Source: Acidobacteriota bacterium (GTDB taxonomy: Bacteria > Acidobacteriota > CAIWXX01). From it: a stretch of 35,456 bases of DNA. Shown piece by piece: positions 3,538 to 12,853 of this stretch (within the stretch, counting starts at the first letter, position 1; each line of letters opens with the position of its first letter). A program made the translations under genes and the position numbers. The notes under the pieces were generated by a model. It was not told where the DNA came from and did not search any database. It saw nothing but the letters and a program-made list of their open reading frames with translations. Location of the stretch: assembly GCA_016191015.1 (NCBI GenBank), contig JACPPM010000240.1, positions 1 to 35,456 on the forward strand. The letters run 5' to 3'.

Positions 3538-4434
3538 CTACCGTGCGTCGAGTGCGCGCATCCGTCGAAGCTCTATATCCCGATACCGCCTCCGCGCAAC
3601 GAACAGAAGTGCTCCGAAGATCGTGACCTCGAGAATCCCGCCGAGCATGAGAGGGTACCAGACATGGTACGGCTGCGAGTACATCAGTGACGCCGCACCC
3701 ACCGCAAGTTCAAGAACACCGAGTACGATCAGCGTGCCCATCACACCGATCGCGGCTCTGCGGGCACGGCCCTTGGAAACGAGCCAACCGATAATCGCGC
3801 CGATGCATCCAATGATCGCCCCGAACGTGCCGCCGAGCACCCCCGCCTGCGACGAGCTCCACCATTGCCGCCCGCCTGCGAAGTCAGCGAGTGGATCTTC
3901 ACCCGGGGCGAACTGCACGAGCTCGAGCGAGCTCAGAAATACAGCGCCCCCCGCCGGCAGGAAGACACTGATGACGAGGCGTTCAGGAGGAGGGTTGCCT
4001 ACGCTGTTGAAAAACGGCAGCACAAATGGACGCCAACCGGAGGTCCCGGTCAGGGCCGCCATCGGACCGGATTCCCCTAGTGTCCGCGAGAAGTACGCCC
4101 CACCTCCCGGGAAATGGCTCCACATCTCGAGATACCCGGTCCCTTCAACCCCGTCGCACCGCACCTGTCCCACGATGGCGTAGGCCGTCCGTGTGACACC
4201 CGGATTCTCGATCGTGAAAATCAAGTACGGGCCAGGCTGGTTCGGGACGCTCCGAATCTCGAGGGTTCCAGCATCGCCACCCGTTCCGCCGGCCAGCACA
4301 CTGCCCGCCCCCAGCCGACCGGCATCTCGAAGCCCCACCCAGGAGATTTCTTCAAGGACATCCACGGCAAGTGCGTGCGGCACCGGGTTCAGTGCCGAGA
4401 GCGCGGCCAGAGCGACCAGAATTGTGGGTTTCAT
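3538..4434 (-). CDS. Exported membrane protein: extracytoplasmic beta domain plus three membrane helices
   Basis: The start at 4434 follows a GGGAGG site by six bases and opens a signal peptide (MKPTILVALAALSALNPV...ALA). The 298-residue product has a Gly/Pro-rich, probably beta-rich, extracytoplasmic region (about 22-190; YLIFTIENPG, TGTSGWRPF, ISVFLPAGG). About three membrane helices follow between 205 and 285, then a basic tail (RRRYRDIELRRMRA). A strong hairpin (4450-4489) lies immediately upstream of the ribosome site. The gene is downstream of, and on the same strand as, the DUF2089-type regulator, so the two may be co-transcribed through the intervening dispersed repeat. No family was recognised. 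Confidence 0.75.
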   Translation of the reverse strand: MKPTILVALAALSALNPVPHALAVDVLEEISWVGLRDAGRLGAGSVLAGGTGGDAGTLEIRSVPNQPGPYLIFTIENPGVTRTAYAIVGQVRCDGVEGTGYLEMWSHFPGGGAYFSRTLGESGPMAALTGTSGWRPFVLPFFNSVGNPPPERLVISVFLPAGGAVFLSSLELVQFAPGEDPLADFAGGRQWWSSSQAGVLGGTFGAIIGCIGAIIGWLVSKGRARRAAIGVMGTLIVLGVLELAVGAASLMYSQPYHVWYPLMLGGILEVTIFGALLFVARRRYRDIELRRMRALDAR

Positions 4435-4449
4435 GATGGGCCTCCCAAC

Positions 4450-4489
4450 GCGGCGGAGCCGCAACCTGCATTGGTTGCGTCTCCGCCGC
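4450..4489 (-). promoter_or_regulatory. Hairpin in the 5' leader of the membrane protein gene
   Basis: Two 17-base arms (4450-4466 and 4473-4489) pair with one mismatch around a 6-base loop. On the mRNA the hairpin ends three bases before the GGGAGG ribosome site (4441-4446). It could terminate transcription from the DUF2089 gene (there is no T-run), protect the mRNA end, or restrict ribosome access. The left arm plus three flanking bases recur exactly at 22-41. Confidence 0.55.
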
Positions 4490-4564
4490 GCGTGAGAGCG
4501 TGGAGGGTGGAGAGTGAGAGCGTTCTTCCGAGCCACCTCGATCGGCGGAGACGACCGCTCCGTT

Positions 4565-4666
4565 CCTGCATTCCTCCCCTCCTGCTTTCCTGAGAGGAGT
4601 TCGGAAGATCTAGCCGCCTCAAATTTCTTGCCATTTTGCATCAACACTCAACTTCCTAGACACTAA
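4565..4666 (+). repeat. Dispersed repeat, copy 3 (full ~100 bp)
   Basis: Matches the reverse complement of 35275-35375 along its length: a CATTCCTCCC / CTGCTTTCCTGAGAGG block, a GTTCGGA block, then TTGCCATTT...TCAACACTCAACTTCCTAGACACTAA. Its right end supplies the TAG stop of the DUF2089 gene (4663-4665). Sub-copies of the core lie at 1-23 and 131-167. It encodes no credible protein. Confidence 0.7.
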
Positions 4667-5001
4667 GATTTCGGTTTCTCGGAGCGACTCGCCAGCTCCT
4701 GCCGGTGCGCTTCGAGCAGCGCCTTCATCGTGGCCATGTCGAGCCTCCCGTCGGCGTAAAGCGCTCTTGTCACCAACTCGAACTCGCTCACCGTCTCCAT
4801 TTCATCCAGAACTCTTATCTTCTCGATAAGCCGGTCCAGCCTCAGACGAATCGTGGGATAGGTTATGCCGTAGGACTGGGCCAGCTCCTTCAGGGAACCC
4901 GATGCCATGATGAAGCGTTTGATGAAGGCCAGGTCTTCGTCGGAGAGATACTCGAACCATGATTTACGATCACCTGGCTCGGCCGCGCGTCCTTCTTTCA
5001 T
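4663..5001 (-). CDS. DUF2089-type helix-turn-helix regulator
   Basis: A 112-residue cytoplasmic protein. The N-terminal half has SWFEYLSDEDLAFIKRFI, then SLKELAQSYGITYPTIRLRL (about residues 37-56), the helix-turn-helix typical of DUF2089-family proteins, which are thought to be transcription regulators. An RLIEKI segment and a helical C-terminus follow. It has a near-consensus promoter (5036-5064) but a weak ribosome site. The stop codon lies inside the dispersed repeat, so the last residues (SRSEKPKS) may have been altered by its arrival. A truncated relative with the same upstream region lies at 11474-11692. In both places membrane protein genes follow directly, which suggests that the family controls such genes here; this is inference. 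Confidence 0.8.
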   Translation of the reverse strand: MKEGRAAEPGDRKSWFEYLSDEDLAFIKRFIMASGSLKELAQSYGITYPTIRLRLDRLIEKIRVLDEMETVSEFELVTRALYADGRLDMATMKALLEAHRQELASRSEKPKS

Positions 5002-6939: not shown

Positions 6940-9390
6940 CTATGGCGAGCAAAGGTCGCTGCTCCGGTCACCTCCCAGACTGGCCCTCACGTTGAGTCGC
7001 CTCACCCGAGCTTTCGTGTTGACGGGATTGACGGGGGCGGTTTGTGGCACTGCCGTGGTGTCCTCGACGACCGAATCCGTGGAGCGTCCCACGCCGGCAC
7101 AGGTTTGACCATCCGGGTCGACACCTATCACAACCACCCCCCCGTTCAAGGAATCCGTTTCATCCACCTGACTCCGGCCGGCAAGAACGAATCCACCATC
7201 GTGCGCAAGCGCCATTGAAAGACCGTACTCATCCAGACCGAGATCAAGAGCCCGATCCCAGACGATGCTGCCGCTCGAGTCCAGACGCACCCACCAGAGG
7301 TCGGAGCCGTGCTCGTTATTGACCTCGTCCGTGCTCCCCACGAGGATAAACCCGCCATCGGACATCGGTTCGCTATCGGTGGCGTAAGGACTGCGGGCAC
7401 CCCGAGGGATGATCGCTTTCTGCCATGAGACGTTACCAGAGCCATCCAGTTTCAGCACCCACGCTGCACCCCCTGACGACGTGCTACCGAATGAGCCTGT
7501 GTAACCCGCAACGACGAAGCCGTTGTCGGATGTCGGTTGCACAGAATATGCCCTGTCGTAGTCTTCACCGCCGTATGTTTTCTGCCACACGATATTGCCA
7601 GATGCATCAAGCTTCACAACCCAGACATCCTCGTTCCCTGCGCCCAACCAGGTCGTGTACCCCGCGACCACATATCCGCCATCGGGAGTCTGCTTGATGG
7701 ACGACGGAGTCGTACCCGCAGGGGGCGCGCCGAGCTGCTTCTGCCACTGGATCTCGCCCCGGCTCCCTGCCTTGACCACCGACGTCTGCCAGACGCCTGT
7801 ATGCGCCGAAAACACAAAGCCTCCGTCATTCGTGAGGCTAAGTGCCGGGTCCCCGTCGTATGGCGACTGGTCATAGGTGCGTTCCCATTCGATGCCCCCG
7901 CCCGGATCGAGCTTGATGATCCAGACATCCGAATCGAGCTTGCCACCGCGCCGCACACCGGCCTCTCCTGCTACAAGATAACCGCCGTCCGGTGTCGGTT
8001 CGATCGAAGTGGCAGCATCTGACTCGGAGCTGCCGTACGTTTTCTCCCAGCTCACCGTCCCGGATGCGGATAGCTTCACTACACACGCGTCCCCCCTTGC
8101 AGCATCGCCGAAGGAGTAGGTCCGACCGGCAGCTACGTACCCGCCGTCCTGCGTCCGCCTGATATCCACTGCAAACCCGGCCGGACCCCCGCCCCACCTT
8201 TTGTGCCATAGGAGCTTGCCATTCTCGCTGACCTTGGCCCACCAGGCACCGCCATCTCCAGCGCCTGCGATCGCGTACGTTCCGTCGCTAGCACTTTGGA
8301 TGGAGTACGGAACATCCGGCAGAAGCCTGGGCGGGAGCCGAAGCCAGACCTTGTCGCCAGTAGGGCCGAGTTTCAGCCAGTACGCGTACCCAACAGTCTG
8401 GCCAGCGCAGATGAAACCTCCGCCCTTCGCTTGTGCGATTGCGTACCCTGCTTCCGCATTGCCGTATTCGCCTCGCGTGTATTCCCATGTAACTTGACCC
8501 GATCCATCAACTCGGACAAACCATGATCTCTTCATTGCATCTTGATTCGATGCATTCTCACCGGCGACTGCGAAACCGCCGTCGGCTGCTGCCGCAACAC
8601 CGTTGAAGGCGTCGTTTTGAGTGCCGCCGTATCTCCGTTCCCAGAGCATCCCGCCAGTGGAATCCAGTTTGATCAACCACCCGTCGAACTTGCCAGCGGA
8701 GGATGAATTGGTCTTGCCAGCCAGCACGAACCCCCCGTCCGATGCGCAACCCATGTCCAACGCGAAATCGTCCTTCACGCCACCATACGTCTTCCTCCAT
8801 AGAGCCTTCCCGGACGCATCCAGCTTGAGGCACCATGCGTCCGCTCCCCCTGCTCCGAACGAGCGTGTCCATCCACTTGAGATGTAGCCACCGTCGGATG
8901 TTTTCACCACGGAGTTGAGCCGGTCGTCACTACTACCACCGTGTGTCCTTTGCCACTCGAATGCGCCCGTAGAGTCCAGCTTGACTATCCAGCCATCCGA
9001 CTTACCGGCGCCGGATGACTCAGTCCGCCCCGCAAACAGGAAACCCCCGTCTGCGGTCTGGAGCACCGAAAGCGCCTCGTCATCCTTCGACCCACCATAA
9101 GTCTTCTGCCAGATCACATTCCCATTCACGTCCAGCTTCGCGTACCAGGCATCCGAATCGCGACCGGCTATCGCCGTGGTGGAGCCAGCGACGATGTGTC
9201 CCTCATCAGAGGTTGTTCGCTGCGAATAGGCGGACCAGTATTCCTGCCAGCGAATCTTAGTGGCCCACTGGGCCTCATGGGTCGGCGGGCCGGCGCTCGC
9301 GTCCACTGCTCCACGGGAAACCGCCACGGCGAGTAGCAGGCCGGCACCCACCATCCACAGCGTTTTTCCCGATGCGGCTTTCTCTCTCAT
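6940..9390 (-). CDS. Large secreted 14-blade DGG[YF]-repeat propeller protein
   Basis: An 816-residue exported protein. The start at 9390 follows GGAGGGTGCT; the longer upstream form has no ribosome site. A signal peptide (MREKAASGKTLWMVGAGLLL...) precedes repeat units of 50-60 residues. I count fourteen cores of the form D-x-W-x-x-K-L-D-x-x-G-x-x-x-W-x-K-T-Y-G-G, the last ending in a degenerate VVVIGVDPDGQTC. Fourteen equals two seven-blade propellers, twice the number in the protein at 309-1964. The C-terminal ~45 residues are low in structure and have no CARDB-like domain. Function is unknown; extracellular or periplasmic location is inferred from the signal peptide. Confidence 0.85.
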   Translation of the reverse strand: MREKAASGKTLWMVGAGLLLAVAVSRGAVDASAGPPTHEAQWATKIRWQEYWSAYSQRTTSDEGHIVAGSTTAIAGRDSDAWYAKLDVNGNVIWQKTYGGSKDDEALSVLQTADGGFLFAGRTESSGAGKSDGWIVKLDSTGAFEWQRTHGGSSDDRLNSVVKTSDGGYISSGWTRSFGAGGADAWCLKLDASGKALWRKTYGGVKDDFALDMGCASDGGFVLAGKTNSSSAGKFDGWLIKLDSTGGMLWERRYGGTQNDAFNGVAAAADGGFAVAGENASNQDAMKRSWFVRVDGSGQVTWEYTRGEYGNAEAGYAIAQAKGGGFICAGQTVGYAYWLKLGPTGDKVWLRLPPRLLPDVPYSIQSASDGTYAIAGAGDGGAWWAKVSENGKLLWHKRWGGGPAGFAVDIRRTQDGGYVAAGRTYSFGDAARGDACVVKLSASGTVSWEKTYGSSESDAATSIEPTPDGGYLVAGEAGVRRGGKLDSDVWIIKLDPGGGIEWERTYDQSPYDGDPALSLTNDGGFVFSAHTGVWQTSVVKAGSRGEIQWQKQLGAPPAGTTPSSIKQTPDGGYVVAGYTTWLGAGNEDVWVVKLDASGNIVWQKTYGGEDYDRAYSVQPTSDNGFVVAGYTGSFGSTSSGGAAWVLKLDGSGNVSWQKAIIPRGARSPYATDSEPMSDGGFILVGSTDEVNNEHGSDLWWVRLDSSGSIVWDRALDLGLDEYGLSMALAHDGGFVLAGRSQVDETDSLNGGVVVIGVDPDGQTCAGVGRSTDSVVEDTTAVPQTAPVNPVNTKARVRRLNVRASLGGDRSSDLCSP

Positions 9391-9574
9391 AGCACCCTCC
9401 CCTTCTCGGCTGCTCGATGCGGTCACCGAAATCATATCCCGGAACCCCGTCTTCCTTTGGGGCGAGGCACGCTCGCACGCAGGGCTCCGGCGAAGTCTTC
9501 AGGCAGAAAAGGAAGGCACACTTCATAGATCGGGGTAATCTGGTGAGGCTCTGCGCCCGGAGCGCGGACCGATC

Positions 9575-9679
9575 CTACCTGAGCGTCTCGAGCCCTGCAC
9601 GCAGGGTCGGATAGGTCAGGCGTGGGCGCAGCTCCTGGCGGAAGCGTCGCGTATCGCCACAGTACGATACGCGTCCGAT
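9575..9679 (-). pseudogene. 3' remnant of an epimerase gene
   Basis: Translated on the minus strand, 34 codons plus the stop read IGRVSYCGDTRRFRQEL...TLRAGLETLR. This is nearly identical to the C-terminus of the intact epimerase at 11900-12853; differences are few (R for L, P for A, L for H). The downstream flank to 9528 also matches. Upstream of 9679 the frame stays open to about 9781 but no longer resembles the epimerase. It is best read as the leftover end of a duplicated epimerase. Confidence 0.75.
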
Positions 9680-9835
9680 CGTAAGGTCGACTATGATGCG
9701 TGCGATTCGATCCGCACGTACGAACACATTGCCCGCGCCGCCGTTCCATCTCCTTCCGGATCTGCAAAAGAAAACCCCCACACACCGGCCGCCTCGATTG
9801 CTTCGACGTTTGCCCGGGCTTGGTGTGACCCTTCT

Positions 9836-9912
9836 GGATGAACCGTTTGAACTCCAGCGACCAACCGCAGCCGCCCCCCTTGTCAGGCGTCGGCCGGAGC
9901 GCCTTGTTGGGC
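9836..9912 (-). other. Possible decayed attC-like recombination site
   Basis: On the minus strand, eight bases after the stop of the gene ending at 9921, lies GCCCAACAAGGCG followed by CCGGCCGACGCC. This resembles the left half of integron attC sites (R''/L'' boxes). About 75 bases on, CTGGAGTTCAAACGGTTC partly resembles a right half, but the GTTRRRY box is imperfect and arm pairing is poor. No integrase is seen. Confidence 0.25.
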
Positions 9913-9920
9913 CGCAGTTT

Positions 9921-10271
9921 CTACCGGCTGAATCTCTCCACGGTCTTGGCCGCTACCCAGCCGCAACCGCCGAGCAGTAAAGCATAGGCCGGTGAAAACA
10001 AGAAGATCAACGCGGCCGTGGAGGATCCCGTCCGCGTCGCACCCCAATCGAAAACCCATGCCAAGTGCACGAAGGCAACGGCCAGCGCCGTGACGGAGGC
10101 GAAGACAAGGGCAGCCCACGATGTTCCGCCTGCACCCGTTCCACGCACGATTACCATTCCCGCCACGAATAGCGGAAAAAGGTTCCACAGAACGAACCAG
10201 TGAAGTCCCTCCGCGTAGAGAACCAGAAACCCGCAGGCTGCCAAGAGCACAATGCCGGTGGTACGCATCAT
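9921..10271 (-). CDS. Multi-pass membrane protein, fifth frame of coupled operon
   Basis: A 116-residue hydrophobic protein starting with ATGATG at 10271; its ATG overlaps the stop of the preceding gene as ATGA, so translation is probably coupled. About four membrane helices are visible (residues 4-20, 24-42, 50-72 and 84-107), joined by short loops such as VRGTGAGG and DWGATRTGSS, with a basic end (KTVERFSR). No family was recognised. Longer forms upstream would overlap the previous gene deeply and are rejected. It is the last gene before an attC-like sequence and an epimerase remnant. Confidence 0.7.
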   Translation of the reverse strand: MMRTTGIVLLAACGFLVLYAEGLHWFVLWNLFPLFVAGMVIVRGTGAGGTSWAALVFASVTALAVAFVHLAWVFDWGATRTGSSTAALIFLFSPAYALLLGGCGWVAAKTVERFSR

Positions 10272-10735
10272 GATCGCTCCGCCGCCCGGTACCGTTGTTT
10301 GGCCCACATCAGGATAGTCCGTCGATCTTGCTTCGCCAGTTCGACGAGGCGGCTCAACTCGGAAAGATCGCCCCCGCTCAGCTCGATTGCTGCAAGGCGC
10401 ACGCGTTCTGGCTCACGTTCACGCGCCTCCGAGCCGTAGCGCCCTAGGATGGTCCGGGCCTCGCGCCATTTACCATGGAATGCGCGTTCCATCGCCGCCG
10501 CGACCATCTCCTCCGTGTCGTCCTTCTTTGCGTCGAGGAAGCGGTAAAGGGTGAACGCCACGAGAGCCGGCAGACCTAGGGAAACTGCGACGAGAACCAA
10601 CCGGTCTATCCCGACAGATACGTAGGGCATAGGCCGAGCGTGGCCGATGAACGTGATGCCGGCAAAGAAGGCCGGAAGCAGACAGAAAATGAAGGCCAGT
10701 GCCGCGAATAGCCAGGCCCGCTTGCCCCTTGCCAT
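10268..10735 (-). CDS. Membrane protein with helical cytosolic tail, fourth frame of coupled operon
   Basis: A 155-residue protein starting at 10735, two bases after the stop of the upstream gene (TGA GG ATG). Two membrane helices lie at about residues 8-30 and 45-66. The remaining ~85 residues are soluble, charged and helical (DDTEEMVAAAMERAFHGKWR, ...ILGRYGSEAREREPERV, LSELSRLVELAKQDRR), with spacing like one or two TPR/Sel1-like helical pairs. It is the only member of the operon with a sizeable soluble part and so the likeliest point of contact with cytosolic partners. No family was recognised; the role is unknown. Confidence 0.7.
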   Translation of the reverse strand: MARGKRAWLFAALAFIFCLLPAFFAGITFIGHARPMPYVSVGIDRLVLVAVSLGLPALVAFTLYRFLDAKKDDTEEMVAAAMERAFHGKWREARTILGRYGSEAREREPERVRLAAIELSGGDLSELSRLVELAKQDRRTILMWAKQRYRAAERS

Positions 10736-10737
10736 CC

Positions 10738-10980
10738 TCACACCCAGCCCGACAGGAGGTTCATCACCGAATCCAGACTCGCAGCCAGCGCCTGGCGTGG
10801 CGGCAGCCCCTTGCGCAGGTGATGGACGAAAACCGGCACGCCAATGAACGTCAGAAAAATAGCTTCCAGAATGAGAAAAACGATACCATGACCCGCCCAG
10901 TTTTCGAACCAAGGATGGAGGACGCAGAGAAACGCCACGAGATTGGCCAGCATGGCCAGAACCAGAATTCCCGATTTCAT
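10738..10980 (-). CDS. Small two-helix membrane protein, third frame of coupled operon
   Basis: An 80-residue protein beginning MKSGILVLAMLANLVAFL. The ATG at 10980 overlaps the stop of the previous gene (ATGA). Two membrane helices (about 3-22 and 31-53) are followed by a basic, amphipathic tail (HHLRKGLPPRQALAASLDSV). A longer in-frame version from 11085 would run inside the previous gene and is rejected. No family was recognised. Its size and position suggest a subunit of a membrane complex with its neighbours. Confidence 0.7.
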   Translation of the reverse strand: MKSGILVLAMLANLVAFLCVLHPWFENWAGHGIVFLILEAIFLTFIGVPVFVHHLRKGLPPRQALAASLDSVMNLLSGWV

Positions 10981-11477
10981 CCCGCCATCCTCCCAGCTTT
11001 GTTGCGAAAGCTCCGCCACACCGTAAGAAGTGTTGTGACTGGTGCGATGGGCGCGGCATAGAGCAGGGCGGCCGCTCCCGCCCAAGCCCAGTACTGTCCC
11101 TGGTGGTCCGCAGCTTGGTCATAAGACGGGTAGGAGACCGCCAGCGCACCGATCACTACGACGACGATCCATGCGGTGCCATGAACGACAAGGCGGAACG
11201 CAACAAGCCTCAGCGGCACGGAAGCCGGCAGGCGGAGGAAATAAGGCCACTGGCGCAGCGGCCAGATTGCCGCGAGTACAACCGGGAGCAGTGCCAGCCA
11301 GCCCACCGAGCTCTCGTACAGGGAGTGAGGCGCCCCGCCTTCGGGGAACGGATTCATCCGTTGCAGATCGCTGATCTCGTTGATGAACACCAGCAGAAAC
11401 ACCCACGTCACGACCAGCGGAAATACCGCTCGGAGAAGGTGTTCTTGCACGATGCTCAATCGCCCCGACAGGCTCAC
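10977..11477 (-). CDS. Four-helix membrane protein, second frame of coupled operon
   Basis: A 166-residue protein. I place the start at GTG 11477: it overlaps the stop of the upstream leader frame as GTGA and is preceded by AGAGGG at a suitable distance. TTG at 11459 is an alternative; an ATG at 11651 would run through the DUF2089 remnant in another frame and is unlikely. Four membrane helices are visible, near residues 12-33 (RAVFPLVVTWVFLLVFI), 55-72, 88-108 (WIVVVVIGALAVSY) and 120-145. The end is basic (VWRSFRNKAGRMAG) and overlaps the next gene. No family was recognised. Confidence 0.65.
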   Translation of the reverse strand: MSLSGRLSIVQEHLLRAVFPLVVTWVFLLVFINEISDLQRMNPFPEGGAPHSLYESSVGWLALLPVVLAAIWPLRQWPYFLRLPASVPLRLVAFRLVVHGTAWIVVVVIGALAVSYPSYDQAADHQGQYWAWAGAAALLYAAPIAPVTTLLTVWRSFRNKAGRMAG

Positions 11478-11692
11478 CGCCAACCCTCTGTTTTCCGGGC
11501 GGAGTGAAAGCCCGGCAGTCGGAACACGCTGGCGCAGTGGGTCCACAGCCGGGTCCGGTCCTGTCCCTGCGCCAGCTCCCTCAGGGACCGCGACGCCAAG
11601 ATGAAGCACTTGACGAAGACTATGTCTTCGTCGGGTAGGTACTCGACCCATGACTTGCGCTCACCCGATTCGAGCGTGCTTGGCTCTTTCAT
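11474..11692 (-). pseudogene. Truncated DUF2089 gene, now the leader frame of the membrane operon
   Basis: The first ~42 codons (MKEPSTLESGERKSWVEYLP..., ...SLRELAQ) match the intact DUF2089 protein at 4663-5001. At the point where the recognition helix should follow (SYGITYPTIRLRL in the intact copy) the sequence changes to unrelated residues (GQDRTRLWTHC...). The frame runs 72 codons and its TGA overlaps the GTG of the next gene. The DNA-binding function is surely lost. Because the promoter and N-terminal frame are kept and the stop is overlapped, the remnant may persist as a translated leader that feeds ribosomes into the operon. Confidence 0.7.
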
Positions 11693-11884
11693 TTTGATCA
11701 GACAGTCATCAATTCAATTCTTACTTATATTAAAACACTGTTTAACTTTTATCAAGCTCAAGCCTACTCTGAGTGAGCTGGGGTAGGGATTCCGAACAAC
11801 CGCGCTGGATCCAACTTCGCCCTGGCGTTTCGGATTCAAGCTACACTTCATTGATCGGGGTAATCTGGCGAGGTGACGCGCTGG
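11640..11884. repeat. Duplicated DUF2089 upstream region, copy B
   Basis: Diverged copy of 4958-5194, covering the start of the DUF2089 remnant, its promoter and the spacer up to the stop of the epimerase. Best kept words are TCAATTCAATT, ATATTAAAACA, GGATTCCGAACA and GGATTCAAGCTA. The part near 11845-11884 is also found at 9528-9565. Confidence 0.7.
11727..11755 (-). promoter_or_regulatory. Promoter of the membrane operon
   Basis: On the minus strand TTGATA (11750-11755), 17 bases, TAATAT (11727-11732). It is the counterpart of the DUF2089 promoter at 5036-5064 and differs by one base in the -35 box. It lies about 35 bases before the truncated DUF2089 frame and should drive all five coupled frames. 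Confidence 0.65.
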
Positions 11885-11899
11885 GAGCGGTGACCGGTC

Positions 11900-12853
11900 C
11901 TACCTGAGGGTCTCGTGCCCCGCACGCAGGGTCGCGTAAGTCAGGCGCGGGAGCAGCTCCTGCCGGAAGCGTCGCGTATCGCCGCAGTACGACACGCGTC
12001 CGATCTTGATGAAGTCGCGGGTGAGAGGCGCTCGTGTCCTGAAGGCGGCGGCAAAGATTTCGCAACAGCCCGCTGCCGCCCGGATCATCCACAACGGCAT
12101 GCGCCATGGTCGGGGCACCCCCCAGACGTCGCAGGCCTGATCGAGGAAGTCCTGCAGAGTGACCGGGCATTCGTCGCCCGCGTGATATATCCCTTGAACG
12201 CCATCATTGACGGCGGCGGCAGCAGTGGCGGCGAGATAGTCTGGCGTGGAGATCAAGTGGATCCAGGTCGGCTCTTTCCAGACTCCCAACAACCGATGGC
12301 GGGCGAGCCATCGCGCAGTGTCGACCATCAGGATGCCGCGCCCATACACCATGCCAAGGCGGAGCGAGACGGGAGTGGTCTGCGTGCCCTGGGTGCGGTG
12401 GAATAGCAGCCGCTCTTCTTCACCTCTGGTCCGCGCGTGTACAGAAACTGGATGGCCATCGAGCCTCCCCGCGGCCGGCTGTGCCGGCGTGGTCGGGCCT
12501 TCGACATGCGGAAAGGCGATCAGGATAACCCGTCCGACGCGCGCCTCGATGCATGCGTCGAGAAGGTTACTGAACCACCGCGTGTTGGTGACGGGCAGGA
12601 ATTTCTCGGGGCGCGGGGCGAAGAGGACCCCCGCGAAATGTACGACCGTGTCGACTCCCTCGACCGCCGGCGCCAGCGTTTCCGGCCGCGCGAGATCGGC
12701 GGGTACGACCCGGACGTTCGAGGCGGCACGCAGGTCCGTGGAGACAGGCGTGCGGTGGAGCATCAGCCGAAGGTGATGGTCACCCCCGGCGAGATGCCTC
12801 GCAAGCAGTCCGCCGAGATTCCCGGAAGCACCAGTGATCAGGATCGTGCGCAA
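11900..12853 (-). CDS. Atypical NAD(P)-binding epimerase/dehydratase-family protein
   Basis: A 317-residue extended short-chain dehydrogenase-type protein. The start is TTG at 12853, a few bases after GGGGAGGGG. The Rossmann motif TGASGNLG is at residues 7-14, with VVHFAG near 71-75. The usual catalytic YxxxK is replaced by H139-A-R-T-R143, so the classic proton-relay Tyr and Lys are both missing; the protein is probably an atypical member that binds a dinucleotide or works by another mechanism. The final 34 residues are duplicated as a remnant at 9575-9679. It is divergent from the transporter at 12965 and upstream of the DUF2089-like promoter region. Confidence 0.8.
   Translation of the reverse strand: MRTILITGASGNLGGLLARHLAGGDHHLRLMLHRTPVSTDLRAASNVRVVPADLARPETLAPAVEGVDTVVHFAGVLFAPRPEKFLPVTNTRWFSNLLDACIEARVGRVILIAFPHVEGPTTPAQPAAGRLDGHPVSVHARTRGEEERLLFHRTQGTQTTPVSLRLGMVYGRGILMVDTARWLARHRLLGVWKEPTWIHLISTPDYLAATAAAAVNDGVQGIYHAGDECPVTLQDFLDQACDVWGVPRPWRMPLWMIRAAAGCCEIFAAAFRTRAPLTRDFIKIGRVSYCGDTRRFRQELLPRLTYATLRAGHETLR

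Follow-up and report, generated by a model that had tools for sequence, protein, structure and literature searches.

Four small membrane-protein genes behind a duplicated DUF2089-type promoter in an Acidobacteriota genome

INTRODUCTION

Between positions 11692 and 9921, on the minus strand of a 35,456-nt stretch of Acidobacteriota DNA (the window), five open reading frames follow one another with hardly a base between them. What are they? The first-pass annotation took them for an operon of five coupled genes for membrane proteins, whose tight coupling suggested one complex of fixed stoichiometry, and for a candidate undescribed system, set, like a cassette, into the middle of an older locus. 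Alternatively, they might be a chance run of open frames, the leftovers of mobile DNA, or an operon put together from parts that traveled separately.

CODING POTENTIAL OF THE FRAMES

The first frame, O1 (11692-11474, minus strand), has no predicted membrane helices. O2 (10977..11477) starts with GTG at 11477, stops at 10977, and encodes 166 aa with four predicted helices; O3 (10738..10980), with an ATG start at 10980, encodes 80 aa with two; O4 (10268..10735; ATG at 10735) encodes 155 aa with two, followed by a soluble, all-helical tail; and O5 (9921..10271; ATG at 10271) encodes 116 aa with four. Hydropathy thus bears out the 4/2/2/4 pattern claimed for O2–O5, and the sequence itself bears out all four claimed couplings: a GTGA overlap between O1 and O2, an ATGA overlap between O2 and O3, a 2-base gap between O3 and O4, and an ATGA overlap between O4 and O5. 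When O2–O5 were compared with each other, no internal paralogy was found.

Are they genes, or a chance chain? Frames of at least 75 aa joined by junctions of -4 to +4 bases were sought in the window and in 60 Markov-resampled control windows. The longest chain in the window comprised four frames, and chains of at least four also appeared in 10 of the 60 controls. Because four-frame chains are not rare in such G+C-rich DNA, coupling alone is no evidence, and the case for genes rests on codon bias and homology, instead. The in-frame codon scores of O2, O3, O4 and O5 are 0.16, 0.23, 0.14 and 0.07, and those of the other five frames are all negative; third-position G+C (0.67-0.72) and codon bias are both host-like; and the four frames run on, one after another, without a stop or frameshift. 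With homology added, O2–O5 look like real genes. O2, O3 and the tail of O4 have homologs in the same frames, which refutes chance for O2–O4, and the codon bias and clean helix pattern argue against it too, so that a fortuitous chain is scarcely credible for the set. It could still account for O5 alone, the weakest of the four in both codon score and homology.

A LEADER MADE FROM A BROKEN REGULATOR GENE

O1 is a different matter. Its head (11567..11692, minus strand) comprises codons 1 to 42 of a DUF2089-type regulator gene, present here as a truncated duplicate. The presumed native copy, 6.7 kb away (4663..5001, minus strand), is intact; it encodes a helix-turn-helix (HTH) protein of 112 aa and provides the only PF09862 match above cut-off in the whole genome (4813-4947). 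The O1 head is 75% identical in DNA to 4876-5001, and the 42-codon fragment is 61% identical to the intact copy in protein. The two copies align from the upstream DNA, which was included in the copy, through codon 42 and then diverge, with likeness ending at 11567. The O1 tail (11474..11566, minus strand) is an out-of-family read-through of 30 codons whose stop overlaps the start of O2 (GTGA), and its codon score, -0.16, gives no coding signal. O1 as a whole, keeping 42 of the 112 codons, has no match to PF09862 over the family cut-off. Because the DUF2089 start ends at 42 codons, the tail lacks coding signal, and PF09862 finds no match, O1 is, to judge from its sequence, a leader built from a broken regulator gene and does not belong to the set. 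The proposed five-member operon shrinks, then, to four genes and a leader.

THE OLDER LOCUS

The intact DUF2089 gene is followed by a partner (3538..4647, minus strand) encoding a conserved membrane-anchored protein of a kind that is ~270-370 aa long, with hydrophobic helices and a conserved middle part (e.g. YLEMWSxFPxGxRxFSRTL). The same succession, DUF2089 and then this kind of membrane protein, occurs in four other genomes (G001, G050, G175 and G197), where the protein measures about 270-300 aa. The class of the window's genome is represented in the comparison by one further genome, G001, which belongs to a different genus. Downstream of 11692, DUF2089 lacks its second half and the partner gene is missing too, both from the very point at which O2–O5 begin, and the idea that something was replaced inside an older locus gains support accordingly. 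As a two-gene module in Acidobacteriota, short DUF2089 regulator plus YLEMWS...FSRTL membrane protein, the arrangement can be seen at 5001-3538 of the window and in L055 (6149-7379), L056 (5357-6546), L057 (5490-6634) and L046 (1486-2560); the two members scanned had no Pfam match above cut-off.

The nearest neighbors of the set are an epimerase gene and a gene for a repeat protein. The epimerase gene (12853-11900) is intact, and its 3' end with the DNA downstream (11838..12005, minus strand) recurs as a direct repeat of 168 nt, 86% alike, at 9513..9680 (minus strand). The ‘epimerase remnant’ described earlier is present, therefore, but is more exactly a second copy of the neighboring intact gene's 3' end. 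The simplest history would be that the epimerase–DUF2089–partner block was duplicated and that O2–O5 then displaced the partner gene of the extra copy together with the latter half of its DUF2089, while the promoter and 42 codons stayed; the lipoprotein/amidase stretch, from 9513 to 5196, was probably inserted separately. Positions 11567 and 9681, examined as possible transposon-style ends, share no repeats of seven or more bases; no tRNA gene that could have served as an integration site lies within the window; and a search for RNA families found none.

Other pieces lie about. A 47-nt direct repeat (85%; 123-169 and 4622-4668 of the window) straddles the junction of DUF2089 with the gene that follows, and its copy near the contig end may be a further piece of that duplicated locus. 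The stretch 9690-9870 (minus strand), reading VEAIEAAGVWGFSFADPEGDGT, looks, by eye, like the end of a protein of the glyoxalase type and may be one more gene fragment of the patchwork. Two look-alike, GGxxxD-type, beta-propeller-like repeat proteins (309-1964 and 6940-9435), one per strand, stand on either side of the duplicated DUF2089 region.

RELATIVES OF THE FOUR PROTEINS

As the first-pass annotation had it, the membrane proteins went unrecognized: neither they nor O1 matched a known family in Pfam, NCBIfam, PADLOC or PHROGs, and PADLOC-DB yielded no anti-phage defense model at E values up to 10. A phage tail-protein match at E 0.9, from the viral, phage and plasmid collections, was dismissed. 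The AlphaFold2 model of O2 is poor (pLDDT 59), and an O2–O3 profile search of the PDB matched nothing. O4 models moderately overall, with a confident helical tail; the Foldseek check that had been suggested matched the model to no known fold in the PDB.

O3 is the best connected of the four. It is 66% identical to a protein encoded on Desulfobacteraceae contig QZJS01000088 (L025), about 53-55% identical to proteins in three related genomes from the phylum of that record, and 48-52% identical in the Acidobacteria genome G325 (JACTMI010000039). It is rare, present in one of 149 genomes in G325's class and in three of 395 in a sample of the phylum (where one further match was rejected). All six members found have two helices and an HxRKGxxxxxALxASLDxV...GW tail; O3 itself, with its C-terminal motif HHxRKGLxxxxALxASLDSV, combines 80 aa, two helices, an invariant PW...W, a glutamate (E) in helix 2, HxRKG and SLDxV...GW. 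No Pfam or NCBIfam model matched, and we propose these six as a small new family of membrane proteins. For one O3 relative, DUF5671 and Cyt_c_ox_IV scored weakly, below their cut-offs, and were not used. A stretch of G451 (L033) that matched the O2–O3 profile at 2e-5 contains four internal stops, and was set aside as hydrophobic noise.

O2 has been matched elsewhere only in its C-terminal half, 95 residues of which share 44% identity with a protein fragment from Desulfobacteraceae. On QZJS01000088 this half lies directly before O3, with the same ATGA overlap; it lacks the first 72 residues there, and adjoins a toxin-antitoxin-like pair. By sequence and gene order, O2–O3 is the only demonstrated pair of the set. 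Residues 73-150 or so of O4 match a free-standing soluble family whose members occur on an Azoarcus plasmid as well as elsewhere in Acidobacteriota; a homology search with the two-helix part gave no match. In G106 (L022 6144-7918), one free-standing relative of the tail lies directly downstream of what looks, by eye, like an NhaA-type Na+/H+ antiporter gene; the neighbors of the rest are unrelated. Searches of genomes and of viral, phage and plasmid collections found no relatives of O5, an orphan, and the viral, phage and plasmid collections searched yielded none of O2 or O3.

How much of the gene order is conserved, then? The O2–O3 order and overlap do recur in one other bacterium; the full O2–O5 set was found nowhere else in ~1,070 genomes (different parts being searched in each) or in the viral, phage and plasmid collections. 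The genomes searched lend no support to the strong claim, that of a single conserved and undescribed complex. Because O3 also stands alone elsewhere and relatives of the O4 tail are free-standing, the set appears to have been put together from separately traveling parts, gained piecemeal, perhaps, by horizontal exchange and domain fusion.

Could the genes be a dedicated complex all the same—a transporter, say, or an immunity pump against a membrane-active compound—passed around as a cassette whose full set has simply escaped sampling? The tight coupling of the frames would suit this, as would the holding together of O2 and O3 in another phylum and the analogous sets of DUF2089 plus small membrane proteins in leaderless bacteriocin loci. 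The set includes no ATPase, permease or bacteriocin family, however, and its absence as a whole from everything searched also tells against a cassette; we consider this explanation distinctly improbable.

Decay is a stronger contender. O2–O5 might be remnants that mobile DNA left behind in a scrap region, open only because they arrived recently and without function in their host. The surroundings, a patchwork of gene fragments between duplicated gene ends, fit this account, and so does the state of O2 in Desulfobacteraceae, truncated and next to a toxin-antitoxin-like pair. Outside the window, O3 is mostly solitary or beside a truncated O2. In three genomes it stands alone beside, and convergent to, tRNA-Pro(CGG) (L034 8127-8203; L035 7317-7393; L058 6590-6666), and in one of these, G593, two phage-type integrases lie beyond the tRNA gene (L034 8225-11389). 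The sole other genome of the class, moreover, has no relatives of the set. Against decay stand the four consecutive frames, free of stops and frameshifts, the host-like third-position G+C and codon bias, and the conserved motifs that O3 retains. Decay seems somewhat unlikely to us on this evidence, yet it is the alternative to be taken most seriously.

PROMOTER AND CANDIDATE REGULATION

The region upstream of the truncated copy (11692..11777, minus strand) contains a promoter-like TTGATA-17-TAATAT at 11755-11727 and, at 11747-11725, the block AGTTAAAnnnTGTTTTAATATAA; upstream of the intact copy stands TTGACA-17-TAATAT. With three mismatches allowed, AGTTAAAnnnTGTTTTAATATAA has just two sites in the 6.4-Mb genome, upstream of the truncated and the intact DUF2089 genes. 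Between the two copies, the block stretch is alike at 25 of 30 positions, compared with about 18-21 of 30 in the flanks. A 52-base block around AGTTAAAnnnTGTTTTAATATAA, lying at about 11757 and 5066 in the window, is matched at 39 of 52 positions upstream of DUF2089 in G001, which none of 2000 shuffles reached; the promoter of the truncated copy matches the G001 promoter at 33 of 52. Between the -35 and -10 of the intact copy lies a perfect palindrome, TTAAAA-TCTG-TTTTAA, which in the truncated copy, read from the sequence, has one mismatch.

Block and palindrome together could be an operator through which DUF2089 regulates itself. DUF2089 is a widespread regulator, and we know of no characterized target for it. 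Given a candidate operator at both sites, the prediction follows that the intact DUF2089 protein controls O2–O5, in trans, perhaps, since its own gene bears the sole other promoter block. Because the promoter and first 42 codons were retained, O2–O5 are most likely transcribed from the DUF2089-type promoter, and translated by coupling.

The overall finding seems real but narrow: a membrane operon, specific to this lineage and assembled horizontally, that stands behind the duplicated promoter of a regulator. That O2–O5 form an acquired and assembled inner-membrane operon of this kind, possibly controlled in trans, is the reading we prefer, with belief and doubt about evenly balanced. Several things count against it. 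The full set is in one genome only; O5 is an orphan with the weakest codon score; O3 is also found on its own; the promoter of the truncated copy is like that of G001 at just 33 of 52 positions, and its palindrome is imperfect; and none of O2–O5 could be matched to a stress or immunity protein already known. The bolder version, an undescribed four-subunit inner-membrane complex under membrane-stress control, with the intact DUF2089 controlling exactly two loci, strikes us as unlikely. Should the preferred reading hold, we would be seeing regulatory rewiring by promoter duplication, in which foreign membrane genes come under an existing membrane-linked regulator by displacing its partner gene, and DUF2089 would acquire a defined candidate operator, present in the genome at exactly two places. 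The prediction for O2–O5 is specific, and can be tested.

COMPARISON WITH KNOWN SYSTEMS

DUF2089 has been divided into zinc-ribbon, HTH and SHOCT-like parts and placed in membrane-stress operons, linked to PSP and Lia (PMC11237479). The locus resembles these in having a DUF2089-type start and promoter directly before tightly packed membrane genes, and differs in that its DUF2089 is truncated. O2–O5 differ from PSP/Lia operons, too, in having no Toastrack, LiaI-LiaF-TM or PspC domain; Pfam gave no match to these, or to PspA, at E values up to 10. In leaderless bacteriocin clusters, such as that of enterocin DD14, a DUF2089 protein has small membrane proteins of two and four helices as its neighbors (PMC7332713). 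The likeness is one of layout only, no sequence match having been found, and the present locus differs in that a bacteriocin gene, a bPH2 protein and an ABC transporter are all absent; a search of O1–O5 for bacteriocin, ABC and PH-domain transporter families found none. From such analogies a role for O2–O5 in membrane stress or immunity may be inferred, and a membrane-protective or membrane-sensing module, in line with the presumed role of other membrane genes linked to DUF2089, is the likeliest functional reading, though a doubtful one.

Closest of all is the Acidobacteriota pair of DUF2089 and membrane protein. The regulator start is the same, and so is the promoter block, in the window and in G001; the difference is that here the partner has given way to four small membrane genes unrelated to it.
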